A stretch of DNA of 52,850 nucleotides from Flavobacteriaceae bacterium (GTDB taxonomy: Bacteria; Bacteroidota; Bacteroidia; Flavobacteriales; Flavobacteriaceae), in NCBI GenBank assembly GCA_021648265.1, contig JAKITD010000013.1, positions 1 through 52,850 on the forward strand. The letters run 5' to 3'. This document shows, piece after piece, positions 14,502 to 45,671 of this stretch; the first letter of the stretch is position 1, and every line of letters starts with the position of its first letter. A model generated the notes under the pieces. The model was not told the origin of the DNA, did no database searches, and saw only the letters and a program-made list of their open reading frames with translations. Position numbers and translations under genes: made by a program.

Positions 14502-15113
14502 TTATTTAACTTTTATAGAGAATAGTTCGTTTTCTTCGACAAAGCCTTTTAAAATATCGTTGGAATTAACTTTTCCAACTCCTGAAGGCGTGCCTGTAAA
14601 TATAACATCTCCTATCTTTAAAGTAAAATATTTTGAGATATATTCGATTAACTCATCAATTTTCCACAACATTAAGGACGTATTTCCGACTTGTTGCACT
14701 TCTCCATTCTTTTCTAAACTAAAATTAATATCATTTACATCTTTAAAATCACTCTTCGGAAGAAAATTTCCGATCACCGCTGCTCCATCAAATGCTTTTG
14801 CTTTTTCCCAAGGAAGTCCTTTTGCTTTTAATTGAGCTTGAAGATCACGAGCGGTAAAATCGATTCCTAATCCTATTTCATTATAATATTTATGAGCAAA
14901 TTTCCGATCGATATGTTTTCCTATTCTATTAATCTTCACCAATATTTCTACTTCATGATGAACATCATTAGAAAATTCAGGAATAAAAAAAGGTTGTTTC
15001 TTTAAAAGTATCGAAGTATCAGGCTTTAAAAACAACACAGGGTCTCTTGGAACCGAATTGTTTAACTCTTCTATATGTTTTACATAATTTCTACCAACGC
15101 AAATTATTTTCAT
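14502..15113 (-). CDS. Fumarylacetoacetate hydrolase-fold family enzyme
   Basis: A 203-residue single-domain FAH-fold protein (acylpyruvase/oxaloacetate tautomerase-like size). Metal ligands are in HHEVEILVKINRIG (two Glu) and GLGIDFTARDLQ (Asp). Other signatures are PVLFLKPDTSILL, KGLPWEKAKAFDGAAVIG and GDVIFTGTPSGVGKV. Such enzymes act on 2,4-dioxo acids or enol-oxaloacetate; the substrate cannot be read here. Its ATG is immediately preceded by a copy of the four-copy leader element (15114-15201), whose micro-ORF stop overlaps this ATG. Confidence 0.9.
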   Translation of the reverse strand: MKIICVGRNYVKHIEELNNSVPRDPVLFLKPDTSILLKKQPFFIPEFSNDVHHEVEILVKINRIGKHIDRKFAHKYYNEIGLGIDFTARDLQAQLKAKGLPWEKAKAFDGAAVIGNFLPKSDFKDVNDINFSLEKNGEVQQVGNTSLMLWKIDELIEYISKYFTLKIGDVIFTGTPSGVGKVNSNDILKGFVEENELFSIKVK

Positions 15114-15201
15114 AAGCCTTTAATATTTGTTAATTTGGTCATATGCTGTTCGCTATTTACAATTTTCATTAACGATAAGGTATTTAACTTGCTCGTTTCA
15201 T
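15114..15201 (-). repeat. Conserved leader/micro-ORF element, copy 1
   Basis: On the minus strand it begins TGAAACGAGC (the TGA is the stop of the exonuclease gene) and carries TAGCGAACAG at 15146-15155. The spacing is 28 nt from the first uORF stop to that box and 32 nt from the box to the FAH start. The frame running ETSKLN...MKIVNSEQHMTKLT is open throughout and ends TGA overlapping the FAH ATG. A competing ATGAAACGAGCAAGTTAA (MKRAS) starts at 15201. This copy lacks the internal ATG seen in copies 2-4. Confidence 0.7.
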
Positions 15202-16025
15202 TTCGTATTAAATTTATTTTTCAACATATCTAAACTATCATTGGTAATTGGTCCTGCAGGTTTGTTGTTAATTCTATCTTTTAAATCTCGTAAAACCTTT
15301 TTGGTGTACATTGGAAAATCTGCATTTTGAATCCAACTAAAATACCCTGGTTCCGATTTAAACAATTCCTCGATTATCTTCCCTTTATGTTTTCCAAAAG
15401 TTATTATTTCTTTACCATCTTTGTTGTAACCTATAAAGCCTGCAAAATCAGCAAAATCCTGGTAAGAGCTAATTTTAGAAAGGAATGGAATATCATTTTC
15501 TAGTTCATCATACCTTTTTACTTGTGCAACAAATATTTCGTAAGTTGCCAAAGTATCAGCTTCGGCACTGTGTGCATTTATAAGTTCCTTATTACAATAA
15601 AATTCATAAGCAGCACCAAGTGTTCTTTTTTCCATTTTATGAAAAATAGTCTGTACATCTACCGCTAAATTTTTCTTTAAATCAAAATCTATTTCTGCTC
15701 TTAATAATTCTTCTGCTAACAAAGGAATGTCAAATCTATTGGAATTAAACCCTCCTAAATCGCTGTCCTTTATTAAGTCATACACTTTAGGGGCTAGTTC
15801 ATTAAATGTAGGCTCATTGACTACCATCTCGTCCGAAATACCGTGGATAGCAGTAGTTTCTGCAGGTATTTTCATTTCTGGATTCACACGCCAAGTGTAG
15901 CTTTCTTTATTTCCGTTGGGAAAAATTTTTAGGATAGAAATTTCTACAATCCTATCTTTTGAAACATTGATTCCTGTTGTTTCTAAATCGAAAAAACATA
16001 TTGGTTTGCTTAATTTTAACTCCAT
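15198..16025 (-). CDS. DEDDh 3'-5' exonuclease (DNA polymerase III epsilon-like)
   Basis: A 275-residue protein with a complete DEDDh exonuclease domain: FFDLETTGI (Asp, Glu), AIHGISDEMV, GGFNSNRFDIPLLAEEL (Asp) and NAHSAEADTLATYEIF (His, Asp). The C-terminal 70 residues (ITFGKHKGKIIEELF, YFSWIQNADFPMYTKKVL) resemble a DUF3820-type domain. It could be a proofreading subunit or a stand-alone nuclease; DnaQ proper usually lacks this tail. The stop TGA lies within the leader element before the FAH gene. A TATCTTTG box lies 38 nt upstream of its ATG. Confidence 0.88.
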   Translation of the reverse strand: MELKLSKPICFFDLETTGINVSKDRIVEISILKIFPNGNKESYTWRVNPEMKIPAETTAIHGISDEMVVNEPTFNELAPKVYDLIKDSDLGGFNSNRFDIPLLAEELLRAEIDFDLKKNLAVDVQTIFHKMEKRTLGAAYEFYCNKELINAHSAEADTLATYEIFVAQVKRYDELENDIPFLSKISSYQDFADFAGFIGYNKDGKEIITFGKHKGKIIEELFKSEPGYFSWIQNADFPMYTKKVLRDLKDRINNKPAGPITNDSLDMLKNKFNTK

Positions 16026-16062
16026 AATTATATAAAAAATAACGGTATTATTATTGCGTTAA

Positions 16063-16070
16063 CAAAGATA
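16063..16070 (-). promoter_or_regulatory. -7 element for the exonuclease gene
   Basis: CAAAGATA on the plus strand reads TATCTTTG on the minus strand, the -7 consensus, 38 nt before the exonuclease ATG at 16025. No TTG lies at the expected -33 position. Confidence 0.4.
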
Positions 16071-16089
16071 ATATTAATATTGTGAAGCC

Positions 16090-16710
16090 ATGAAGATTAC
16101 CATTATTTCTTTCTTTTTTTTACTTTTTTGTTTTGGTAGTTTTTCTCAAACTAACGATGACCGAGTAAAACTAACTATTACAGAAAATGGAAAAAGAACT
16201 ATTTTTTTTGCAGAAAACACCTCTCAAGATACGCTAAGAGCATTCTTAATACTAAAGCCTGTTGGATATCGAAGAAGTTCTTCAAGACCTATATTAAAAG
16301 ACATTCCTCCAAAAACTAAAGTAGCAATGACTACGATTATTGAAACATCTAACGTTCCTTCAAGCTATACCTATCAATTTATTATTGATGAAAAAAGAAT
16401 TAATCTTGACGATATTCGCAAAAAATCTAGCAAAGATATTTCTAAGTTAATCGAAAACAGGTTGGTGATTTTTTATGAAGGTGATTGCGAAAAATGCGTC
16501 TTGCTTTCTGATGCTTTAAAAAAGAACCGTATCAAACATCGTGTTTTTGATATTAATCAAGACCAAAAACTTTATGACCAATTTGTTAAATTTATTAGAA
16601 ATCGTTTTCCTGATAAAACCGAATTTAATCTTCCCATAATATGGAATAAAAATAAGGCGGTTTTTGGATATGATAATCTTGATTTAATGCTTAATAAATT
16701 TTCAAACTAA
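16090..16710 (+). CDS. Secreted protein with a glutaredoxin-like C-terminal domain
   Basis: A 206-residue protein. A Sec signal peptide ends near SFSQ (residues 1-20). The middle (about 25-115) is a beta-rich segment (FFAENTSQDTLRAFLILKPV, PPKTKVAMTTIIET). The C-terminal 90 residues look like a thioredoxin/glutaredoxin fold: LVIFYEGDCEKCVLLSDAL with a CxxC (Cys-Glu-Lys-Cys, about 136-139), KHRVFDINQDQ, and LPIIWNKNKAVFGYDNLDLM. An envelope redox role is inferred. It is divergent from the exonuclease gene. Confidence 0.72.
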   Translation: MKITIISFFFLLFCFGSFSQTNDDRVKLTITENGKRTIFFAENTSQDTLRAFLILKPVGYRRSSSRPILKDIPPKTKVAMTTIIETSNVPSSYTYQFIIDEKRINLDDIRKKSSKDISKLIENRLVIFYEGDCEKCVLLSDALKKNRIKHRVFDINQDQKLYDQFVKFIRNRFPDKTEFNLPIIWNKNKAVFGYDNLDLMLNKFSN

Positions 16711-16759
16711 GTTAATAATCAAAAGCACCATTGACTACTAGCTATCGATTTACTGAATA

Positions 16760-18091
16760 CTAAACCTCTCGATTTACATCCCAAGCCTCCAAATAATCGG
16801 CAACTGCTTTAACGAATTGTCCACCTAGAGCTCCATTAACAACCCGATGGTCGTAAGAATGTGACAAAAACATTTTATAACGGATACCAATAAAATCGCC
16901 TTCAGGGGTTTCGATAACCGCAGGAACTTTTCTAATAGCTCCTAAAGCTAAAATTCCTACTTGTGGCTGATTAATAATTGGTGTTCCCATAATACTACCA
17001 AAGGTTCCAACATTAGTAACTGTATAAGTACCTCCTTGAATATCGTCTGGTTTTAATTTTCCAGAACGTGCTCTTCTCGCTAAATCATTTACCGCTTTAC
17101 TCATCCCTACCAAGTTTAATTGGTCGGCATTTTTAATTACCGGAACAATTAAATTCCCGTCGGCTAAGGCAGCAGCCATTCCTAAATTGATGCTTTTTCG
17201 TTTGATGATTTTATCGCCATCTACTAAAACATTCAACATTGGATAATCTTTCAAGGCTTTTGCAACCGCTTCCATAAAGATTGGAGTGAACGTTAAGTTC
17301 TCCCCTTCGCGCTTCATAAAATCAGCTTTTACTTTTTTACGCCAATTCCAAATATTAGTAACATCTACTTCAATAAAAGATTGAACGTGTGCAGCAGTCT
17401 GAACACTTTGTACCATATGATGAGCAATGAGTTTCCCCATACGCGTCATTTCTATAATTTCATCTCCTTCGTTTATTGGAACTGAAGTTGATTTTGTTTC
17501 GGCACTTCGACTCCGCTCAGTGACCGCACTTTTATTTTGTTCGACAACAACATTTGAAGTTGTTTTTTGTTGAACAGATTGTGAAGAACGATTTTCAACA
17601 TATAAAAGAATATCATTTTTGGTAACTCTTCCGTCTTTTCCTGTTCCTGATATACCGTCTAATTCTTGTTGTAAAATCCCTTCAGATTTAGCAATATTTT
17701 TTACTAGTGGCGAATAAAAACGAGTGTCTGAACTCTGTACAACAGTTTCAGCAACCTCTTTCATTGGAGCTTCTACTTGAGCAATCACCTCTTTTAAAGG
17801 GGTTGCTACTGCAACAGTTTCTGAAGGAGTTACATCTGTAGTGGCAGTTCCTTCAATTTCAATTACTGCAATGGTTTGACCTACTTGAATTACATCATCT
17901 ACTTCAAAAAGCTTTTCCACCAATACACCAGTAACCTCACTTGGAACCTCGCTATCCACTTTATCGGTTGCGATTTCTAATACTGCTTCATCCTCTTCAA
18001 TAGTATCTCCTACTTCTTTTAACCAAGCAGTTAAGGTTGCTTCTGCAACACTTTCTCCCATCTTCGGTAACTTTAATTCAAACTTTGCCAT
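16760..18091 (-). CDS. 2-oxoacid dehydrogenase E2 component (dihydrolipoamide acyltransferase)
   Basis: A 443-residue acyltransferase core of a 2-oxoacid dehydrogenase. The N-terminal lipoyl domain carries EIATDKVDSEVPSE (lipoyl-Lys about 43). A peripheral-subunit-binding domain follows at about 125-165 (SPLVKNIAKSEGI, GTGKDGRVTKNDIL). The catalytic domain (about 215-443) has GTYTVTNVGTFGS and LSHSYDHRVVNGALGG with the active-site His. Branched-chain or 2-oxoglutarate specificity cannot be decided, and no E1 or E3 gene is nearby. The linker before the catalytic domain contains an in-frame genomic repeat (AVTERSRSAE, 17501-17529). Confidence 0.9.
   Translation of the reverse strand: MAKFELKLPKMGESVAEATLTAWLKEVGDTIEEDEAVLEIATDKVDSEVPSEVTGVLVEKLFEVDDVIQVGQTIAVIEIEGTATTDVTPSETVAVATPLKEVIAQVEAPMKEVAETVVQSSDTRFYSPLVKNIAKSEGILQQELDGISGTGKDGRVTKNDILLYVENRSSQSVQQKTTSNVVVEQNKSAVTERSRSAETKSTSVPINEGDEIIEMTRMGKLIAHHMVQSVQTAAHVQSFIEVDVTNIWNWRKKVKADFMKREGENLTFTPIFMEAVAKALKDYPMLNVLVDGDKIIKRKSINLGMAAALADGNLIVPVIKNADQLNLVGMSKAVNDLARRARSGKLKPDDIQGGTYTVTNVGTFGSIMGTPIINQPQVGILALGAIRKVPAVIETPEGDFIGIRYKMFLSHSYDHRVVNGALGGQFVKAVADYLEAWDVNREV
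17501..17529 (-). repeat. Dispersed repeat inserted in frame in the E2 gene
   Basis: GGCACTTCGACTCCGCTCAG continuing TGACCGCAC reads on the minus strand as AVTERSRSAE. It shares TCGACTnCGCTC with 29208-29230, inside the cobalamin riboswitch. It falls in a flexible interdomain linker, where insertion is tolerated. Confidence 0.65.
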
Positions 18092-18156
18092 AATAATTTA
18101 TCTTACTAGAAGGATTTATTTTAACGATGCAAAATTAGTTAAAATTTATATGTTTT

Positions 18157-19290
18157 TTAGATGGATTTTCTTAAAAAAACCAACACAGACCCTTTTTGGT
18201 CGCTTTGATCGCTTCCGAGAATAAAATTACAGCCAGGAGGAGAAATACGAAATGTGTTGCCTTTTCCTCTTAATTTTCGCATTACCATAAAAATTTGGGA
18301 ATATGACATGTAATCTACATCAAAAATAAAGTTGGAATTTATCAAAACCTCATCGCTAAAAATAGTCTTTGAAGTAGTCTTTATTTCAGTATTAATATTT
18401 TCTGAAATATTTTTTAGGAGTATTATATTTTCAGTTAATACGTAAGTAATCTTATTTGTAATTGAAGTTTCGTTTTTATTTTTTGAAGTGTTTTTAAAAT
18501 TTTTAGCTACAAAAACTCCCAACTTCACAAATGAATCGAACAGAAAATTGGTATTAAAATGCTTCTTATAAAATATATGCATCGCTCCATAAAAACAATC
18601 AAAATAAGCGGCATCTTTTTGTGTGCTTTCTCCTTTGTAGTGAAGCATTACACTACTTCCTAAATAGTGATTTTTATAACCTGCTTTTGTTATTTTATAC
18701 GAGAAATCTATATCCTCTCCGTACATAAAATAGTCTTCATCAAAACCCTTAACTTCATTGTAAACACTTTTTTTTAATAACATAAAAGCGCCAACTAAAA
18801 CAGCTACTTCACCGTTTTCATTTTTTAAAATATCGTTTGCATAATAGTCCTTTCCCAATCCTAATAATTTTAAAATAGAGGCTTTTGGTGTTGGTAAATT
18901 TCGTTTGCTTTCGGGAAGAAAAGAACCTGTTCCATCCATTAAATAGATTCCTAAAGCTCCTAATTTTTTTATGGATTCGGCATATTTTAAGGAAACAATA
19001 AAAGTATCTTCTGCTACTGCTGTATCGGGATTTAAAATACAAACATACTCCCCTTTTGCAATGGCGACAGCTTGATTGTTTGCTTTACTGAAACCAACAT
19101 TTTCTTTGTTTTCGATTAAGGTAATTTCAGGGAATTTAGTTTTCATCATCGCACAACTCTCGTCTGGAGAATTGTTATCTATTACTATAATTTCTGCATC
19201 AATTCCTTTAATACTTCGTTGTACACTTACTATACATTGCTCTAAAAAATATTGAACATTATAATTAAGTATGATGATAGATAACTTCAT
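18157..19290 (-). CDS. Family 2 glycosyltransferase (rhamnosyltransferase-like)
   Basis: A 377-residue GT-A enzyme. N-terminal MKLSIIILNYNVQYFLEQCI, then IIVIDNNSPDES and ILNPDTAVAEDT (the nucleotide-sugar-binding Asp region), with GEDIDFSYKITKAGY as the acceptor/catalytic motif. This is the WbbL-like layout of rhamnosyltransferases in surface polysaccharide synthesis; donor and acceptor are inferred only. The last ~95 residues (after KNFKNTSKNKN) form an unusual basic then beta-rich tail. No hydrophobic anchor is visible. Its ATG overlaps the end of leader element copy 2. Confidence 0.87.
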   Translation of the reverse strand: MKLSIIILNYNVQYFLEQCIVSVQRSIKGIDAEIIVIDNNSPDESCAMMKTKFPEITLIENKENVGFSKANNQAVAIAKGEYVCILNPDTAVAEDTFIVSLKYAESIKKLGALGIYLMDGTGSFLPESKRNLPTPKASILKLLGLGKDYYANDILKNENGEVAVLVGAFMLLKKSVYNEVKGFDEDYFMYGEDIDFSYKITKAGYKNHYLGSSVMLHYKGESTQKDAAYFDCFYGAMHIFYKKHFNTNFLFDSFVKLGVFVAKNFKNTSKNKNETSITNKITYVLTENIILLKNISENINTEIKTTSKTIFSDEVLINSNFIFDVDYMSYSQIFMVMRKLRGKGNTFRISPPGCNFILGSDQSDQKGSVLVFLRKSI

Positions 19291-19402
19291 AGGTCTATAA
19301 CATTTATTAAATCGGACATATCCTGTTCGCTATTCGTCCCCGTATCAAGTACTGGACAGGCTATATTATTGTTTGATGAAAATTTTAACATGCTCGTTTC
19401 AA
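19291..19402 (-). repeat. Conserved leader/micro-ORF element, copy 2
   Basis: The minus strand begins TTGAAACGAGCATGTTAA (19385-19402), starting 3 nt after the recR stop. It carries TAGCGAACAG at 19323-19332, then 32 nt to the glycosyltransferase ATG. The uORF-to-box spacer is 52 nt, 24 more than copies 1 and 3, and a multiple of three. The long frame MLKFSSNNNIACPVLDTG, then TNSEQDMSDLINVIDL, has its ATG in AGCATGTTA and ends with TGA overlapping the next ATG. Confidence 0.72.
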
Positions 19403-19404
19403 TA

Positions 19405-20025
19405 TTATGAACTTTTTAATGATGCTTCAAAAGGAATTCTATTTAAAATACTTCTGCCTAAAGTTACCTCATCCGCATATTCTAATTCGTCTCCTACTGA
19501 AATTCCTCTGGCAATCGTGGTCGTGGTTATTTTAAAATCTTCAATTTGACGAAAAATAAAAAAATTGGTCGTGTCTCCTTCCATTGTGGAACTTAAAGCA
19601 AAAATAAGTTCTTTTACTTTTCCTAATTTTACTTTTTCGACTAATGAAATAATATTTAATTCCCCAGGACCAATGCCATCCATTGGCGAGATCTTCCCTC
19701 CTAAAACGTGGTATTGCCCTCTGAATTGACTCGTATTCTCGATTGCCATTACATCACGAACATCTTCAACTACACAGATAATTTCTTTATTTCGGTTTGG
19801 GTTACTACAAATCTCACATAGTACTTTATCAGAAATATTATGACAGCTTTTACAAAAAATGATTTCTTCTCGCATTTGTTGTAAGCTTTCGGTAAGTTGC
19901 TGGGTATGGCTTTGAGGTTGTTTCAATAAATGCAATACCAAACGCAATGCTGTACGTTTACCAATGCCAGGAAATTGTGACATTTCGTTGACTGCATTTT
20001 CAAGAAGTTTTGATGAAAAATCCAT
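19405..20025 (-). CDS. recR: Recombination mediator protein RecR
   Basis: A 206-residue protein that works with RecF/RecO to load RecA on gapped DNA. N-terminal helix-hairpin-helix ([20 protein letters not shown]), the four-Cys zinc motif [16 protein letters not shown] (about 57-72) and the Toprim domain ([35 protein letters not shown]) are all present. The Walker-B-like C-terminal [16 protein letters not shown] is intact. The length is typical. It ends just before leader element copy 2. Confidence 0.97.
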
Positions 20026-20054
20026 TTACTTATTATTGGCAGCAATATAAAAAA

Positions 20055-20089
20055 AATGCTTCAGATAAAGTGATTTTACCTGAAGCATT
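20055..20089 (-). terminator. Terminator of the T9SS propeller gene
   Basis: AATGCTTCAG (20055-20064) pairs with CTGAAGCATT (20080-20089). On the minus strand the stem is followed by eight consecutive T, a strong intrinsic terminator 20 nt after the stop at 20109. Confidence 0.8.
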
Positions 20090-20108
20090 CTTTTGAAATT
20101 CAATCTTG

Positions 20109-22592
20109 TTATTTTTTAATTAGTTTCTTAGTTATGGAACCTGCATCTGAGTTAATTCGGATAAAATAAATACCGTTATTTAATTTAGAAACATCAATAG
20201 TATATTCTTCAGAAATTGAAATATTAGGTTGATAAATTACTAGTTTTCCTAAAACATCAAACACGCTAAAGTCTGCTTCAACTCCTTTATTAAAAGTAAA
20301 TTTTACTGTATTATTAGTAGGATTTGGATACATAAACACCTCTTTTTCAGAAAGAAAAGAATTCACACTTAATACAAAAGGTACAATTGGTGAAGCCCAA
20401 AGGCCTCTTCCGTATGAGGCTGCATAGATTTTTTCATCTACACTATTAATTTCTAATTCGTTGATAATTACATTTGGTAAATTGTTATTGTAAGGCTGCC
20501 ATTCAGTAAAAGTATTGTCTATATAAAACAACCCATAGTCCATTCCTAAGTACAAACCATCATTATCATGATTATCCCAAACCAATGCTAATGCAGAAAA
20601 ATTAGGTAAGTTAAATTTGTAGTTTATCCAAGTTACTCCTCCATCTTCTGAAACAAGCACTTTATTTGAACTATTTGTTGCTACAGCAATTTTATTAGGA
20701 TTTGTTGGATGAATTGCAATAGAATTTATAATTTCTCCAGGATTTGCCAACTGTACCCAATTAGTTGCACCTCCATCTTCGGTTTTGTAAATTAATGCAC
20801 TTCTAGATGCATACATTACTTGATTATTTGAAGCTGCAATTTTTAAATGATTTAATTCATTTCCAAAATCTTGAGAAATAGCTGACCATGAATTCCCCTT
20901 GTTTGTAGATTTATAAACGTTTTTCAATCCTATATATATAGTGTTTGTAACTTGAGGATCTTGCTCAAAAGGAGTTACCCAATTTCCACTAGCAGGTGTT
21001 GATACATAAGAGATGGAACCTGCAGCATTATCTGTTTTGTATGTGCCTCCGTATTGAGTCATTCCGTACATCGTATTTGTATTGTCTTTATCTACAAAAC
21101 CTTCCATGCCGTCTGCACCAATCCAGTCTATCCAACCGTTTACAGCTGTATAGAAAGAAGAACCATTATCTTGTGAACCTCCAGTAATTACAACATCTGT
21201 TGTTTGAGAAATACCTATTTTATAAAATTGCCTAATTCCTAAACCCTTAGTAATATCTTCATAATAATTAGCAGTAATATTTGCGGTATTTTCAGCTTTA
21301 AAAATACCTCCATCTGTACCTGAATATAAAGTAGTTCCGTCAAAGACTAGAATATCTACATCGGCGTGGTTATAACCAACATTTGCATTTGCTGCATTTC
21401 CTGGAACCCAATCCGATGTGTTTTCAAAAGTAACTCCACCATCCATAGAACGCCAAGTTAAAATTCCTGCAATATGTACTTCATTTACATCTGTTGGGTT
21501 AACAGCTATATCCATATCTCGAGGTGCTTGCCCACCAGAATCAAATCCAGCAGTATCATATCCAAAATAATTTCTTCCGGTATGATCTAGTTCAGTAAAA
21601 CTATCTCCTGAATCTATAGATTTATAAAAACCCCCAAAGCTACCGTTATTTGCTTCAAGAAGATATACGATTGTATCATCATCTGGAGAAACCCCTACCA
21701 TTTTAGCTTGAGAAGGAAAACTTCCTGTACTTGTAAAAGTAGCACCTCCATCTATAGATTTATGAAAACCATAACCTGAAACATACACTACGTTAGAATC
21801 TCCTGGTTTGAACTCAATATCATAACATTTGTTATCGTTTAGAGGCGATGTCCAGGTTACTCCACCATCTGTGGTCATGTACATTCCTGCATTCTGACTT
21901 GAAGCATAAATAATATTACTATCCGTAGGATGAATTAAAATCTTATTTACCAAAGAATTACTTAAATCTGCTAATTGAGACCAAGTTGCTCCAGCATCAA
22001 TAGATTTATATATTAATCCACTAGAAGAACCAAAATAATAGGTATTTGAATCTTGTGGATCTATAGTAACAGCATACACACTCAGGTTTGAGAAATAATC
22101 TCCCATTGCGGCCCACGATGCTCCGGCATCTGTAGTTCTCCAGACGCCTCCAGTATTTGCACCTACAATTATATGGTTTGCATCAATAGGGTCTATCGCA
22201 ATAGATGTAATCCTACCAACACCTGGATTCCAACTTGTGGTAGAGTTCCAATCTGTTGGTCCTAATTCCTCCCAATTATCTATTAAAGGTTGTCTGCTCC
22301 CTGAAGTTTCGTTTAGGTAAGCATTAAAACTTTCAACTTCTATTAATGTTTCAGTTATAGAGGGTAGCATTCCGTTTTCGTTCATTAAACGAGTTGCATT
22401 GTATTCCCAACGTTTAAATTGAACATATCCTGAACCTCTGCCTTTGTCTTTGTTTTCAAAATAAGTTTCTGCATTGTCAATAATTTCTTGAACGGTGAAA
22501 TTCTCTGCTTCAATCATTTCAAAATATTCTTGTGAATGAATAGTAACCGAAATAAATAATGCTCCAATAAATAATAATAATTTTGTTTTCAT
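20109..22592 (-). CDS. T9SS-secreted BNR/VPS10-like beta-propeller protein
   Basis: An 827-residue secreted protein. A signal peptide (MKTKLLLFIGALFISVTIHS) is followed by a long array of BNR/Asp-box-like repeats (TDAGASWAAMG, SIDAGATWSQLA, TTDGGVTWTS, SIDGGATFTS, SEDGGVTWIN), as in sortilin/VPS10 and photosynthesis-stability-factor-like propellers. The C-terminal ~80 residues are a type A sorting domain (MYPNPTNNTVKF, FSVFDVLGKLVI, NGIYFIRINSDAGS, KKLIKK), which targets the protein through T9SS. Function is unknown; such proteins are often surface adhesins or hydrolase-associated. Leader element copy 3 precedes its ATG. Confidence 0.88.
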   Translation of the reverse strand: MKTKLLLFIGALFISVTIHSQEYFEMIEAENFTVQEIIDNAETYFENKDKGRGSGYVQFKRWEYNATRLMNENGMLPSITETLIEVESFNAYLNETSGSRQPLIDNWEELGPTDWNSTTSWNPGVGRITSIAIDPIDANHIIVGANTGGVWRTTDAGASWAAMGDYFSNLSVYAVTIDPQDSNTYYFGSSSGLIYKSIDAGATWSQLADLSNSLVNKILIHPTDSNIIYASSQNAGMYMTTDGGVTWTSPLNDNKCYDIEFKPGDSNVVYVSGYGFHKSIDGGATFTSTGSFPSQAKMVGVSPDDDTIVYLLEANNGSFGGFYKSIDSGDSFTELDHTGRNYFGYDTAGFDSGGQAPRDMDIAVNPTDVNEVHIAGILTWRSMDGGVTFENTSDWVPGNAANANVGYNHADVDILVFDGTTLYSGTDGGIFKAENTANITANYYEDITKGLGIRQFYKIGISQTTDVVITGGSQDNGSSFYTAVNGWIDWIGADGMEGFVDKDNTNTMYGMTQYGGTYKTDNAAGSISYVSTPASGNWVTPFEQDPQVTNTIYIGLKNVYKSTNKGNSWSAISQDFGNELNHLKIAASNNQVMYASRSALIYKTEDGGATNWVQLANPGEIINSIAIHPTNPNKIAVATNSSNKVLVSEDGGVTWINYKFNLPNFSALALVWDNHDNDGLYLGMDYGLFYIDNTFTEWQPYNNNLPNVIINELEINSVDEKIYAASYGRGLWASPIVPFVLSVNSFLSEKEVFMYPNPTNNTVKFTFNKGVEADFSVFDVLGKLVIYQPNISISEEYTIDVSKLNNGIYFIRINSDAGSITKKLIKK

Positions 22593-22680
22593 GTATCTAT
22601 ACTATTTAATAATTCGGTCGCATGCAGTTCGCTATTAGTCATTCCCCTGGGTGATAAACTTTTTAACATGCTCGTTTCAT
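22593..22680 (-). repeat. Conserved leader/micro-ORF element, copy 3
   Basis: The minus strand carries ATGAAACGAGCATGTTAA (22663-22680), a 28 nt spacer, TAGCGAACTG (22625-22634) and 32 nt to the ATG at 22592, the same spacing as copy 1. The long frame MLKSLSPRGMTNSELHATEL continues LNSIDT and stops at TGA overlapping the ATG. Unlike copies 1, 2 and 4, no same-strand gene ends just upstream, so the element stands alone here. Confidence 0.72.
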
Positions 22681-22803
22681 AGCTTAATTAAAATTGAGGT
22701 GTTACTCTTCTAATTTTCAATAAGTTTCAAATATACTAAGAAAATGGTTTTCTAATTTGTTAATATTTGTATTTTTACCAATCAACTTAATCACTTATAA
22801 AAT

Positions 22804-24264
22804 ATGAAACCTCACTATATACTATTACTAATTACTGGTTATTTTGGGGTGCTATTTTTAATTTCAATCCTTACTGGGAAAGAAGATTCAAACGAGGCAT
22901 TTTTTAAAGCTAACAGACAATCTCCTTGGTATCTTGTTGCTTTTGGGATGATTGGCGCCACCCTATCTGGAGTTACTTTTATATCGGTTCCAGGTACTGT
23001 AGAAACTGCACAGTTTAGCTATATGCAAATGGTTTTTGGGTATATTTTTGGAATGATAATTATTGCTTATGTATTGCTTCCTATTTATTATAAGTATAAT
23101 GTCACATCCATTTACGAATATTTAAATGATCGTTTGGGAAGTAAATCTCACAAAATCGGTGCCTTTTTCTTTTTACTTTCAAGAACAATTGGTGCTGCTT
23201 TCAGAATATTTTTAGTAGCACTAGCGATGCAATATTTAATTTTTGATGAATGGAATGTGCCTTTCATTATTACCGTGATATTTTCTATTTTACTTATTTG
23301 GATTTATACCCATCGTGGCGGAATTAAAACAATCGTATGGACCGATACACTTCAAACTTTCTTTATGCTTTCGGCAGTAATTTTAGCCATCTATTTTATA
23401 AATGATAAAATTGGCTGGAGCTTTTCTGAATTTTTTGCTTCGGAAGAATTAAAACAATACAATAAAATTTTGTTTACGGGTGATGTAAATAGCAAATCTT
23501 ATTTTTTGAAATCATTTTTTGGAGGAATTTTCATTACGGTAGCAATGACAGGTGTTGACCAAGATATGATGCAAAAAAATCTAACTTGCAAAAACTTAAA
23601 AGAAGCTCAAAAAAATATGCTATCGATGGTAAGTTTATTGGTGGTTGTAAATTTTGTGTTTCTACTTTTAGGTGCCTTACTTTATATCTACATTAACAAA
23701 TTTGGTTTGGAAGTGCCTGTAATTGATGGTGTAAGAAGAACCGATTTATTATTTCCATTAGTGGCTGTAAAAAGCGGATTGGGAATTCCGTTAGCAATGG
23801 TATTTATTTTAGGGATTATCGCTGCTGCTTATTCAAGTGCAGATTCAGCTTTAACCTCCTTAACTACTTCTTATTGTGTAGATTTTTTAGATATTGAAAA
23901 GAGAGATAAATCTATCCAGAAATCACTTCGTAAAAAGGTGCATATTGCAGTTTCTGTGATTTTAGTTTTAGTGGTAGTTTTATTTAATAGTGTATTGGAA
24001 CGTGATGTAATTACAGGATTGTTTACCATTGCTTCTTATACGTATGGGCCACTTTTAGGATTGTTTTTCTTTGGAATTTTTACTGAATTTAAAGTAAAAG
24101 AAAAATATGTTTTAATAGTTTGTATTGTTTCGGTAGCCTTGAGTTATTTCTTAAATATTTATTCTGAAGATTTATTTAACGGCTATCAGTTTAGTTTTGA
24201 ATTATTAGGATTAAACGGATTATTTACCTTTTTAGGCTTGTATTTAATTAGGAAGAAAGGGTGA
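22804..24264 (+). CDS. Sodium:solute symporter (SSS family)
   Basis: A 486-residue inner-membrane transporter with about 13 hydrophobic helices and the LeuT-like fold of the SSS family. N-terminal [53 protein letters not shown] and [17 protein letters not shown] (Na2-site helix) are diagnostic. It couples Na+ entry to uptake of an unknown solute. It is a single gene with no strong promoter consensus. After the TGA stop, the same frame stays open for 30 acidic codons (24265-24357). Confidence 0.9.
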
Positions 24265-27171: not shown

Positions 27172-29001
27172 TTAAAATTTAAAGTTTATAAAGGTTTGAA
27201 AATTTCTGTTAGGCATCGGCCTGTATGCAACATTTTCGTAATATTTATTAAAAATGTTGTTTAACTTTATTCCTATTTTTATAGGAAATTTATTTTTTTG
27301 AAATGTATAATCTATTCCGAAGTTTGAAACCGAATATGCTTCTACTATTCCTAAATTATCGGTAGTAGTAAATACCGTTCCATTATATAATAATTGATAG
27401 TAGGCTGAAATATTGTTGAAGGTATAGTTAAGCAAACTAGTTGTTTTATGATATGGAACATAAATAAGTTGCTTGTCCTTTTCTTTATCAATAGCCGAAG
27501 TATAAGCGTAATTTATTGACGTAGAAAATTGGTGTTCTTTAAATGCTATTAAATAGTTTGCAGAAACTTCTGCACCATAATTTTCTGCTTCCGAAATATT
27601 TATCGGCATCCACAAACCACTATCAGAAGGTTGCCATTTTATCAAATTTGTTGAAGTAATGTAAAATGCGTTCAATTGAAACTGAAAATTTTTCCAAGTA
27701 AATTTATTACCAAAATCTGCTTGATAAGAAGTTTCTGGTTGTAGATTTTTATTTCCGCCAGCATCCCAGAACAAATCATTAAAAGTTGGCACTCGGTAAT
27801 TTTTGGAACCATTTAATGTTACCGAATACCAATTTAATAATTGATAACTTACATCGAAGGCAACTAAAAATGGATTCTTAAATTCATTTAAAAATTCTTG
27901 ACGCAAATTTAATCCGTAACTTAGTTTTTTACTTACTTGATGTTTCAGTAAAAAAACGGCAGCCAAAGTATTTCGGTCGTTATTTCCTATATTACTTCCT
28001 TCCGAATTTATATAGGTATAATTTAATACCGAACTAATTTTTAGATTATCCAACAGATTGTATTCCAATAAATAATCGCCAATAAACGTGTTCGATTTAC
28101 CTTCAAAAAAAAACTCTTTTTCTTTGTTCGGAGAATACCGATAGCGTTCAAAAAGGTGCGCTACTTTTAAGGTAGAACTTAATTTATTCCTGTTAGTTTT
28201 CCAACTTACAAGGTTACGTGTAGTTATATCCTTATAGTTATCATTGGAAGGTGCAGTAATACTTCCCGAAAAATTACGGTCGCTTACAAAGTAATTACTA
28301 TTCCAGCTTAAGAAACCTTTTTTTGTTTTCGAACCTGCGTTTGCTGAAATATTAAGTCTTGAAAATTCACCATTTTCATTTTTCTGATCTAAGTTTATAA
28401 AATCATAATCATTTTCAGAATCTATAAAATCAATACCCAAATCAAAATATTTTTTTTCGTTAGATTGTACCGTTTTAAAATTCCCTAATAAGGTCGAAAA
28501 GCTTCCGTAGCCAATATTAAGATCATTTTTATGCTGTTTTTTAAATACTAAATCGTTGTTTAAATGAATGCTCCCACCTACAGCTCCACTCCCATATTGA
28601 GTACTTCCGCCTCCGCTTCGTATAATAATATTATTGAATGAATTTATTGAAATGGTATTAAAATCGGTTTGTCCCGTTAGGTTTGAGTTTATATTAATAC
28701 CGTTCCAGATTACAGCGGTTTGTGCCGCATTGGTTCCTCTAAAAGATGGTGAAGAAACCATTCCGTAACCATTTTCTTTAAAATATATAGTGGAGTTTAA
28801 GCGTAATACGTCTGTGAGTGAAGCCGAATTTCGTTCAATTAACGTGTCAGATATTTTGGTAAGCTTATAGCCGCTTGCGTATTCGTTTAATTTAGAATCT
28901 AGGATCAAAACTTCCTTTAATTCCTGAATAGAATCCAATTGTGCATACAAAGGTGTAGCACAAAAAAATGTAATTAATATAAAATGATAAAATCGACTCA
29001 T
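27172..29001 (-). CDS. btuB: TonB-dependent cobalamin receptor, BtuB-like
   Basis: A 609-residue outer-membrane receptor: signal peptide (ITFFCATPLYAQ), an N-terminal plug (LTDVLRLNSTIYFKENG, PSFRGTNAAQTAVIWNGIN, IIIRSGGGSTQYGSGAVGGS), then a beta-barrel of about 22 strands ending in aromatic Phe (FQTFINFKF). YRVPTFNDLFWDAGGNKNLQ is the receptor family signature. It imports a large ligand across the outer membrane with TonB energy. A cobalamin riboswitch immediately upstream makes B12 or another corrinoid the ligand. It is co-transcribed with the BtuG-like gene. Confidence 0.93.
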   Translation of the reverse strand: MSRFYHFILITFFCATPLYAQLDSIQELKEVLILDSKLNEYASGYKLTKISDTLIERNSASLTDVLRLNSTIYFKENGYGMVSSPSFRGTNAAQTAVIWNGININSNLTGQTDFNTISINSFNNIIIRSGGGSTQYGSGAVGGSIHLNNDLVFKKQHKNDLNIGYGSFSTLLGNFKTVQSNEKKYFDLGIDFIDSENDYDFINLDQKNENGEFSRLNISANAGSKTKKGFLSWNSNYFVSDRNFSGSITAPSNDNYKDITTRNLVSWKTNRNKLSSTLKVAHLFERYRYSPNKEKEFFFEGKSNTFIGDYLLEYNLLDNLKISSVLNYTYINSEGSNIGNNDRNTLAAVFLLKHQVSKKLSYGLNLRQEFLNEFKNPFLVAFDVSYQLLNWYSVTLNGSKNYRVPTFNDLFWDAGGNKNLQPETSYQADFGNKFTWKNFQFQLNAFYITSTNLIKWQPSDSGLWMPINISEAENYGAEVSANYLIAFKEHQFSTSINYAYTSAIDKEKDKQLIYVPYHKTTSLLNYTFNNISAYYQLLYNGTVFTTTDNLGIVEAYSVSNFGIDYTFQKNKFPIKIGIKLNNIFNKYYENVAYRPMPNRNFQTFINFKF

Positions 29002-29045
29002 ATTTCCCTTGCTTTTATCCCGAAAGCTTACTGTTAAATTATAAA

Positions 29046-29265
29046 TATGGCAGGTCTCCTGGCTCTCTTTTTAACTAATTGCCTTCCCATCCCGAAACGT
29101 CGGGACAGTGACTTAAGATTATTAGTTATTCTCAATTATAAATTGAAAATCAGATTACAGTTGCGGGAACAGCTTCGGAATTAAACCGAATTCCCTTTTA
29201 AGAGTTTGTCTGTTCGAGCGCAGTCGAGAACTAATTCTCTTACGTAAACTCAACAAACATCACTC
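29046..29265 (-). ncRNA. Cobalamin riboswitch
   Basis: Reading the minus strand: GAATTCGGTTTAATTCCGAA is followed by GCTGTTCCCGCAACTGTAA (29154-29172), then CACTGTCCCGA and GGGATGGGAAGGC, then the B12 box GCCAGGAGACCTGCC (29049-29063). This is the conserved core of the cobalamin riboswitch, ending 45 nt before the btuB ATG, so it likely controls translation or transcription in response to adenosylcobalamin. Two peripheral stems are repeat-like: TCCCGACGTTTCGGGA between the CACTG and GGGAAGG segments, and TCTCGACTGCGCTCGAA (29208-29230) inside the GAGTTT-AAACTC arm. Exact 5' boundary is approximate. Confidence 0.93.
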
Positions 29266-44244: not shown

Positions 44245-44619
44245 TTACTTCCCAAAAAACATTTTAAAAGCAGCTATTAAAAGTATCACTCCAAATATTT
44301 TTTTAAGCATATCTTGGTTAATGGAAATTGCTAATTTAGAACCAAAATAACCACCTACCACAAAACCAATTGCTATAATTAAAGCAAATTTCCAATTGAT
44401 ATAACCCTCGGAATAGTAATTATAGGCGGCTAAAAAAGTAACTGGAACAGCAAGTACTGCAAGGCTTGTTCCTTGTGCTGCATGTTGTGAATATCCTAAA
44501 ACAACCACCAATAAAGGAATCATTATAACGCCTCCTCCTACTCCAATTAATCCACTAAGCATTCCTGCCAAAACTCCAATAATTAATAAGGATACAATAA
44601 CTGTTGCACTCATTTTCAT
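44245..44619 (-). CDS. Half-size TauE/SafE-family membrane protein
   Basis: A 124-residue protein with four hydrophobic segments, equal to one half of the usual eight-helix TauE/SafE exporter. Diagnostic text is LLIIGVLAGMLSGLIGVGGG and YSQHAAQGTSLAVLAVPVTF. The C-terminal half has VGGYFGSKLAISINQDMLKK. Half-size members probably pair to make a transporter; the substrate (sulfite or sulfonate type) is inferred from the family only. Leader element copy 4 precedes its start. Confidence 0.88.
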   Translation of the reverse strand: MKMSATVIVSLLIIGVLAGMLSGLIGVGGGVIMIPLLVVVLGYSQHAAQGTSLAVLAVPVTFLAAYNYYSEGYINWKFALIIAIGFVVGGYFGSKLAISINQDMLKKIFGVILLIAAFKMFFGK

Positions 44620-44742
44620 ATGTTTAAACTATATTTTTTAGCCGTAATCCCGATAACTATCGGGACTGTTCGCTACCTGCCACGCCAGCAGGCGGGTTAA
44701 TCATTTTCTTGTGTGATAAAAATTTTAACATGCTCGTTTCAT
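44620..44742 (-). repeat. Conserved leader/micro-ORF element, copy 4, with an inserted palindrome
   Basis: The minus strand starts ATGAAACGAGCATGTTAA (44725-44742); its TGA is the stop of the upstream lytic transglycosylase. The uORF-to-box spacer is 49 nt (+21), with an added CCTGCTGGCGTGGCAGG palindrome that keeps the frame. TAGCGAACAG is at 44666-44675. A TCCCGATAGTTATCGGGA palindrome (44647-44664) then enters, lengthening the box-to-start gap to 46 nt and ending the long frame MLKFLSHKKMINPPAGVAGS (continuing EQSR) at TAG. Confidence 0.72.
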
Positions 44743-45671
44743 TTGATGGTTTTATAATATCCTTCTTCTGGTATTTCAATATAATATTCTTTTCCTGAAG
44801 AGTTTTTTAAATAATTATCTCGCAACCAAGGATTGTGAATCTTTAAAATTTTATAATTAATACCATGTTTTATAGCAAAAGAAGCAAAATCTGTAACTGC
44901 CGTATCAACCTTTACCTTGTAAGTTGGTATAGTTTCATATAAATCGGATTCTCTAAAATTAAATCCGTATTTCTGAGGATTGGACATTATTTCTTTAAAA
45001 GCTAAAATTCTAAAAACATACCGACTTGTCTCACTATTTAACAGTAAATCATAATAACTATTTGAAGCTTGTTGTCTTATTTGTTGTTTAGCAATCCCTC
45101 CTCTTCCAGCATTATATGCAGCTGCGGCCAATGTCCAGCTTCCAAATTTCTTTTTTGCACTTATTAAGTATTCCGCAGCAACCCTTGTAGCAATTTCTAA
45201 ATTATAACGCTCATCAACATAAGAATTAATTTCCAAACCATATTCCTTTCCTGTGGCTTTCATAAAATGCCAAAACCCAGCCGCTCCAGCTGGAGAACGA
45301 TTATTCATCAAACCACTTTCAGCAACAACTAAATATTTAAAATCATCAGGAAGTCCATAATTTTTTAATAAAGGTTCAATGATTGGAAAATATTTATGAG
45401 CCCGTTTAAACAATAATAACCCGTTGGATTGCCAATAAGTGTTTACCAACAACTCTCTATCCATTCGCTCTCTAATATCAGGATTATCCAAAGGAACAGG
45501 TTCACCAGCAAAGTCCATTTTCTCTGGAATAGGTAAGGCATAAATATTATAATCATTTATTATTTTACGCTTAACGATAGCATCTGTCGGTGCTTCTTGA
45601 ACTGCATTTATAAATAAAGTGCCCGCTCCAAAGAGAAGGATTCCAAATAAAATTTTTGTTGTAAGTTTCAT
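44739..45671 (-). CDS. MltD-like lytic transglycosylase
   Basis: A 310-residue periplasmic murein hydrolase. An N-terminal signal/anchor (ILFGILLFGAGTLFINAV) is followed by the SLT domain: FKYLVVAESGLMNNRSPAGA with the catalytic Glu (VAES), AAGFWHFMKATGKEYGLEIN, YVDERYNLEIATRVAAEYL and GSWTLAAAAYNAGRGGI. It cleaves the glycan strand of peptidoglycan to 1,6-anhydromuropeptides. A short C-terminal region (about 250-310) has no clear LysM. Its stop TGA lies in leader element copy 4. Confidence 0.9.
   Translation of the reverse strand: MKLTTKILFGILLFGAGTLFINAVQEAPTDAIVKRKIINDYNIYALPIPEKMDFAGEPVPLDNPDIRERMDRELLVNTYWQSNGLLLFKRAHKYFPIIEPLLKNYGLPDDFKYLVVAESGLMNNRSPAGAAGFWHFMKATGKEYGLEINSYVDERYNLEIATRVAAEYLISAKKKFGSWTLAAAAYNAGRGGIAKQQIRQQASNSYYDLLLNSETSRYVFRILAFKEIMSNPQKYGFNFRESDLYETIPTYKVKVDTAVTDFASFAIKHGINYKILKIHNPWLRDNYLKNSSGKEYYIEIPEEGYYKTIK

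Follow-up and report, generated by a model that had tools for sequence, protein, structure and literature searches.

A small, probably mobile DNA element that appears to insert at translation start codons in Flavobacteriaceae

Four similar sequences in a contig of a Flavobacteriaceae bacterium (JAKITD010000013.1, positions 1 to 52,850; hereafter the window, meaning the whole stretch of 52,850 nucleotides that was analysed) raise the question of what kind of element can stand immediately in front of genes that are unrelated to each other. The initial annotation had described four minus-strand copies, each directly before the ATG of one of four unrelated genes, and had suggested that they might be a leader peptide, structured RNA or mobile repeat. 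Both this placement (Table 1) and the downstream genes as named were borne out (FAA_hydrolase, Glycos_transf_2, Sortilin-Vps10 with Por_Secre_tail, and TauE), and among the three proposals the mobile repeat gained support while the structured RNA and a coupled reading frame lost it. Judging from sequence comparisons, the copies probably represent (with a probability of roughly 0.78) a small non-autonomous mobile DNA element whose insertions fall, in sense orientation, at translation start codons, with a specificity that is strong, not absolute. The patchy copy number (0 to 36 in one genus), empty sites in relatives, tandem copies, and near-identical copies before unrelated genes are indicative of a mobile repeat. 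Genomes and loci are referred to by G and L numbers, G000 being the genome of the window.

Table 1. Copies of the element and adjoining features in the window
Feature	Position	Strand	Remark
Element copy 1, 88 nt	15114..15201	-	Runs from A(15201) of the old start codon up to the last base ahead of the new ATG
ORF upstream of copy 1	15198-16025		Stop is copy 1's own TGA
Micro-ORF MKRAS* of copy 1	15184..15201	-	Formed by old start codon and element 5' box
FAH-fold gene (FAA_hydrolase)	14502..15113	-	ATG supplied by copy 1
Element copy 2, 112 nt	19291..19402	-	Extra stretch of ~24 nt near 19335-19360; upstream triplet TTG
Family 2 glycosyltransferase gene (Glycos_transf_2)	18157..19290	-	Start now ATGAAG
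Element copy 3, 88 nt	22593..22680	-	
Sortilin-Vps10/T9SS-sorted protein gene, with Por_Secre_tail	20109..22592	-	Behind copy 3
Element copy 4, 123 nt	44620..44742	-	Two nested palindromes; site empty in G012 and G010
ORF upstream of copy 4	44739-45671		Stop is copy 4's TGA
Nested palindrome CCCGCCTGCTGGCGTGGCAGG in copy 4	44676..44696	-	
Nested palindrome GTCCCGATAGTTATCGGGAT in copy 4	44647..44666	-	
TauE/SafE gene (TauE)	44245..44619	-	ATG supplied by copy 4

In the window, the shared opening TGAAACGAGC has four exact matches, as described, all on the minus strand (15191-15200, 19392-19401, 22670-22679 and 44732-44741), and seven matches when up to one mismatch is allowed, against a mean of 2.2 in shuffles. 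The spacings first reported had to be revised: the 32 nt said to separate the box TAGCGAAC from the start codon in three copies measured 34, 34, 34 and 48 nt to the ATG, and in place of a 28 nt spacer common to copies 1 and 3 the distance from TGAAACGAGC to TAGCGAAC was 35, 59, 35 and 56 nt in copies 1 to 4. The short MKRAC/MKRAS frames noticed in the copies do exist, copy 2 reading LKRAC from a TTG start. When the site of copy 1 was read by eye in relatives, the element was present in G012, G010, G009 and G017 (there in tandem) and decayed in G005 and G014.

Beyond the window, the genome-wide pattern search that had been suggested found an 18-mer 26 times, at up to two mismatches, in the own genome (a 2.83 Mb draft in 112 contigs), as against 0 for the reversed control pattern. 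A sequence-only covariance model built from 25 copies, omitting the truncated TrkA copy, found 36 matches there at E<=0.01 and 39 at E<=10. With this model the element was detected in 18/59 genomes (own included) and in 12/19 of the genus, with 0 to 36 copies each (36 in G000, 26 in G012, 20 in G007, 16 in G013, and 8 in G031). It was present in 54/397 genomes of a family sample, in which ten candidates were scored per genome so that copy counts are floors, and in 7/395 genomes of a phylum sample, six of the seven belonging to the same family. The exact 20-mer occurs in at least 111 stretches of GTDB contigs; the matches listed are mainly from Flavobacteriaceae (Lutibacter, Kordia, Winogradskyella, Psychroserpens, Lacinutrix, and Mariniflexile) and include one Salinivirgaceae MAG and one Cytophagales MAG. 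One copy (L222) is on a contig that carries the label Sulfurovum sp. NORP62, perhaps through a binning error. IMG/VR contained 0 matches to the exact 20-mer, and nothing was found in phage and plasmid records with one 88-base copy as the query. A literature search, which reached few subscription journals, returned no description of such an element.

When nested palindromes are absent, the element is about 88-90 nt long. The old NTG start leads into a conserved box AAACGAGCA.GTTAAAA, after which come a middle of variable sequence, a core (written GCGAACAGCATGTGACC or AGCGAACAGCATGTGACC; L069 and L071 have a GCGAGTTCCAT-like form), and a 3' leader rich in A and T that ends in ..ACACATGAA and abuts the remainder of the gene; the alignment of 25 copies has (A)TGAAACGAGCA at its 5' end and ..ACACATG at its 3' end. 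The new start is followed by AA in 145/147 copies, as counted by a 3'-end finder that takes no account of what follows the triplet, compared with 194/482 ordinary starts. The upstream distance of the promoter box TAnnTTTG (-7) from the first ATG peaks at 20-30 nt, which matches ordinary genes, and one such box lies inside the 133 elements inspected, some of which were mis-ended by the finder used. According to excerpts of PMC6847099, translation in this phylum uses A-rich upstream regions and not Shine-Dalgarno sequences, and the element consensus (A at -6, C at -3) is an imperfect match to the determinants given in those excerpts. Given such A-rich-upstream initiation, it is plausible that the element acts as a portable A/T-rich leader for translation start.

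Palindromes (CCCGACGTTTCGGGAG, CCCGCCTGCTGGCGTGGCAGG, GTCCCGATAGTTATCGGGAT, and variants) occupy a similar place in L002, L004, L006, L012, L014, L019, L024-L026, and the window (44647-44696). They are missing from the orthologous G012 copies at L025 and at the GAPDH, DapD, and rhomboid genes (names such as GAPDH, DapD, CphA, PDHB, MnmA, AroQ, and rpmJ come from reading translations alone), and because of their absence at the latter three genes they are not considered part of the core; they may represent a second repeat with a preference for the first, or G012 may have lost them. Outside the genus, the loci L069-L071, L328, L333, L338, and L350 (in G036, G051, and another genome) hold diverged copies of the element whose core reads GCGAGTTCCAT or GCGAACACCAT.

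The copies could instead be a cis-regulatory leader, that is, a leader peptide or attenuator with the MKRAC micro-ORF, defining a regulon and spread through gene control. Most copies do lie in sense orientation directly before a gene, and an exact MKRAC*/MKRAS* is encoded in 17/26 own-genome copies. A second frame, ETSMLK, had been proposed to be coupled to the downstream gene; its TGA does overlap the next ATG in copies 1-3 of the window, yet the coupling is unsupported across copies, as the frame is open through to a TGA overlapping the new ATG in 18/147 copies (8/26 in the own genome, by a finder that mis-ended some copies). Start-to-start distances modulo 3 number 63/47/37 (n=147). The covariation test that had been called for yielded 0 consensus pairs on 25 copies, and single RNA folds are unremarkable, the z-scores of eight copies being 0.74, 1.5, 0.82, -1.96, -0.62, -0.74, 0.65, and -0.88; the fold nearest to standing out (-1.96) is that of copy 4, which holds two palindromes. 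Rfam at the gathering threshold gave no match on any of the four copies, and a scan of 14900-22900 in evalue mode gave none on copies 1-3. The one Rfam match at the gathering threshold in the window is a cobalamin riboswitch (RF00174, 80 bits) at 29032-29250 on the minus strand, upstream of the ORF 27172-29001.

Change after insertion offers a further view on regulation. For 13 insertions shared by G000 and G012, the differences were 11/259 in the 5' box, 37/285 in the middle, 27/329 in the core, 16/286 in the 3' end, 27/779 in the upstream flank, and 86/871 at synonymous third positions, the gene rows of L018 being unreliable because its gene alignment slips. The 20-nt 5' box has changed less than both the middle (p=0.0004) and the third positions (p=0.003), although the copies were found by this very box, which lowers its apparent divergence. 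The 5' box or the micro-ORF may be kept for a purpose, and the MKRAC*/MKRAS* frame may have a minor regulatory role. As an explanation of the element itself, a regulatory leader is nevertheless quite improbable: the genes behind the copies are unrelated, their orthologues in close relatives lack the element, neither frame nor fold is conserved, the copy number runs from 0 to 36 within the genus, and both tandem copies and copies without a gene exist.

Orthologues of element-bearing genes were located in relatives and their starts compared, excluding relatives seen with the element. Among the 28 loci compared, 12 could be matched to an empty relative that is identical at 16/24 or more upstream positions (GDH, AroQ, CphA, TauE of the window, FabG, GAPDH, TrkA, L025, DapD, L258, L262, and rpmJ), and at all of these alignable loci (12/12) the best fit is at shift 0, the element's first triplet corresponding to the start codon of the empty relative. 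At the other 16/28 loci the upstream flanks have diverged or are mis-anchored (MnmA, S8), shift 0 being best in 2. At window copy 2 the upstream triplet is TTG, the empty G010 orthologue starts with TTGAAG, and the filled gene starts with ATGAAG, showing that the old start was kept and a new ATG came with the element; a one-base indel lowers the anchored flank identity of this comparison to 8/24.

The bases after the start codon were read in the same comparisons. CphA has ATGGAA or ATGGAG in 5/5 empty genomes and ATGAAA in the filled genome, LytTR-b has ATGGAA in 2/2 empties, and AA at codon 2 of DapD is absent in 7/8 empties, while GAPDH is mixed, with ATGAAG in the closest empty genome and ATGGAx in the other five read. 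The element probably brings ATGAA with it, and a preference for targets already having ATGAA is also likely; since the closest empties are already NTGAA in 21/28 loci, part of the codon-2 AA signal could be target choice or ordinary divergence. A target-site duplication of fixed length was not seen, as the left triplet is TTG where the right is ATG at copy 2 and codon 2 of CphA differs from all five empties. A ribosome-dependent mRNA nuclease that cuts at start codons, with the pieces re-joined, predicts the target's codon-2 bases on the left junction; this idea was dropped because the CphA, LytTR-b, and DapD copies carry AA at that junction.

How firmly are the copies tied to gene starts? Copies at random positions and orientations with no conserved frame had been named as the contrary case; the frame is indeed not conserved, whereas position and orientation relative to genes are tightly fixed. 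From 182 copies found, minus 9 with a weak 3' end (including L346 and L146) and 3 same-gene duplicates, 170 distinct copies were retained, of which 145 precede an ORF (at least 50 aa or running off the stretch, with the element's terminal ATG as its start), 9 precede another copy in tandem (7 by rule; L223 and L248 by eye), and 16 neither, with the finder behind this count itself scoring AA after the ATG. A finder that disregards the bases following the triplet gave 123 copies before an ORF, 6 in tandem, and 18 neither (n=147 kept of 183). In the own genome 25/26 copies precede an ORF, the exception being L021 with an 11-codon frame. Sixty or more open in-frame codons upstream were found in 0/174 copies, a set in which some 3' ends were misplaced, and the sole candidate insertion inside an ORF seen is a truncated copy behind a 404-codon open frame (L346, in G166). 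Upstream of insertion sites the sequence is similar to what precedes ordinary starts, T being somewhat more frequent at -1 (0.57 vs 0.43) and at -7 (0.55 vs 0.33). The bias of copy sites to starts is strong, not absolute.

Such a bias could also arise if the element inserted at any ATGAA and starts only seemed favoured since selection removes insertions inside genes and keeps those at starts. Nearly all new starts are ATGAA (145/147 with AA), 16/170 copies lie at such sites without an ORF, the closest empty sites are mostly NTGAA already (21/28), and the share without an ORF is larger in some genomes, where an ORF follows 5/7 (G164), 4/6 (G166), 4/6 (G051), 3/5 readable (G036), and 2/4 (G024) copies. 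ATGAA sites as such are nonetheless distributed differently. Only 395/3681 background ATGAA sites in GTDB loci are start-like, against 145/170 copies (Fisher p about 6e-104). ATGAA in the window, counted with the window copies' own ATGs and on this one window, marks 19 gene starts and otherwise lies within genes (171 sites) or between them (26 non-start sites); intergenic sites are thus as common as starts, yet the copies stand at starts and non-gene sites in a ratio of 145 to 16 (p about 1e-10 against 19 and 26). The bias holds as well in GTDB copies chosen by an intact 20-mer, which have had little time for decay (88/100 at ORF starts, some copies being mis-ended). We consider insertion at any ATGAA unlikely, with a share that was raised, and that of insertion at start codons slightly lowered, in view of a weaker bias in several other genomes.

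The relationships among copies speak for mobility. Near-identical copies precede unrelated genes (L005/L006, 96.6%; L167/L169 in a Lutibacter MAG, 96.7%), and in the most similar pair of all (98.9%) one member, L216, stands before a frame of just 47 codons. Tandem copies occur in several genomes, with a triple tandem in G036, and the FAH gene of G017 has a second copy at its current start, behind an older copy. Several insertions are common to G000 and G012 (the 13 compared), and others are private, such as CphA in G000 and L258 and L262 in G012.

Movement would probably require a trans-acting enzyme. The GTDB loci yielded no long autonomous copy, only the 5' end of L174 and L233 falling within the stretch examined, and searches for Y1 transposases, reverse transcriptases, and tyrosine recombinases revealed no mobilising gene in these draft genomes, in which an absent gene may lie in a gap. 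Y1 transposases (PF01797) occur in 4/19 genus genomes (G000, G003, G006, and G009; six genes in G000 and one in G009), do not follow copy number in the genus, and are found neither in G012 (26 copies, 83% complete) nor in G007 (20 copies, 99% complete). Reverse transcriptases (PF00078), as of a retroelement or group II intron, are present in 13/59 genomes and likewise do not follow copy number in the genus: G007 (20 copies) has one gene, G031 (8 copies) has two, and G000 (36 copies), G014, G012, G009, G013, and G010 have none. A Y1 transposase as helper and a reverse-transcriptase retroelement were accordingly rejected. Tyrosine recombinases are found in 19/19 genus genomes. A further group of them (~370-430 aa), defined by length and score (L351-L362), is present in 9/11 genus genomes with at least 4 copies and in 2/8 with 0 or 1, or in 1/8 if G011, which was not linked by blastp, is left out; it is absent from G007 (99% complete, 20 copies) and G013 (16), and no AAACGAGC box was found in 2.3-4 kb around 12 of its genes. 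The G000 and G012 versions of this recombinase are 94% identical, with a conserved neighbour. As the mobilising enzyme, this group is a weak, post hoc lead.

These searches also bear on whether the repeat is merely a known small element, that is, a MITE, an IS200/IS605 derivative, or a REP-like palindrome. Its size, copy number, and lack of coding capacity are typical of such elements, some copies hold nested palindromes, and G000 and G009 do have Y1 transposase genes. By contrast, no terminal inverted repeats are visible by eye in the 25-copy alignment, the 0 consensus pairs and the eight RNA folds gave no sign of subterminal hairpins, and a palindromic core of the REP type is absent, palindromes being present in some copies only and differing between orthologous copies (missing from G012 at GAPDH, DapD, and the rhomboid gene). 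Together with Y1 transposases confined to 4/19 genus genomes and lacking in the copy-rich G012 and G007, this makes a known small element very unlikely. We rate the element as categorically new, since the defining features tested for MITEs, IS200/IS605 elements, REP-like elements, reverse-transcriptase retroelements, and leader peptides were not found and the literature search returned no description of it.

Mobile elements usually spread at the cost of gene damage, and the known safe-site targets are tRNA genes, terminators, and attachment sites. Comparison with the empty sites shows that the element leaves the target's 5' region and original NTG start upstream of itself. Translation from the old start would end after five codons (MKRA[C/S]*), and the gene would be translated from the ATG brought by the element, by fresh initiation or re-initiation; codon 2 of filled genes begins with AA where orthologues have other bases. 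Such a replacement of the start would make an insertion nearly harmless, thereby explaining why essential-looking genes carry the element. In a wider sense, it could be a new class of mobile DNA that targets the start codon through a feature of gene starts, and not a long DNA motif, and that replaces the initiation region with its own and so enters essential genes without breaking them, a proposal for which we see close to even odds, a shade on the doubtful side. Conceivably, recognition of that feature is coupled to transcription or translation initiation. If true, an element that finds and rebuilds gene starts would be a new answer to the problem of gene damage; each carrier genome would have had tens of its genes, essential-looking ones among them, rewired in their 5' leaders, start-codon annotation and second residues would be altered in carrier Flavobacteriaceae, and discovery of the mobilising enzyme would provide a tool for directing insertions to gene starts.

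Among known systems, MITEs and other small non-autonomous elements are short, non-coding, multi-copy, patchy, and presumably mobilised in trans, all of which the present element shares, the last presumably; it differs in that no terminal inverted repeats and no classical target duplication were seen, and in being tied to start codons and bringing its own. IS200/IS605-derived and REP/RAYT elements insert in oriented fashion beside a short target, without inverted termini or classical target duplication, and are similar in these respects, but the element has no conserved hairpins and Y1 transposases do not track its copy number in the genus. Rickettsia palindromic elements are likewise small, dispersed, and tolerated in genes; they are palindromic and lie in frame inside ORFs, whereas a long open frame upstream was found in 0/174 copies here. 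The TAACTGA heptamer repeats upstream of start codons in Beggiatoaceae, Cyanobacteria, and some Bacteroidetes (PMC4679880) are, in the passages of that paper devoted to them, dispersed near start codons with no pattern in gene function, and its authors consider horizontal transmission; those passages mention no insertion junction or new start codon. In further distinction from the element, the repeats described there are tandem 7-mers of another sequence that stand at varying distances from the start.
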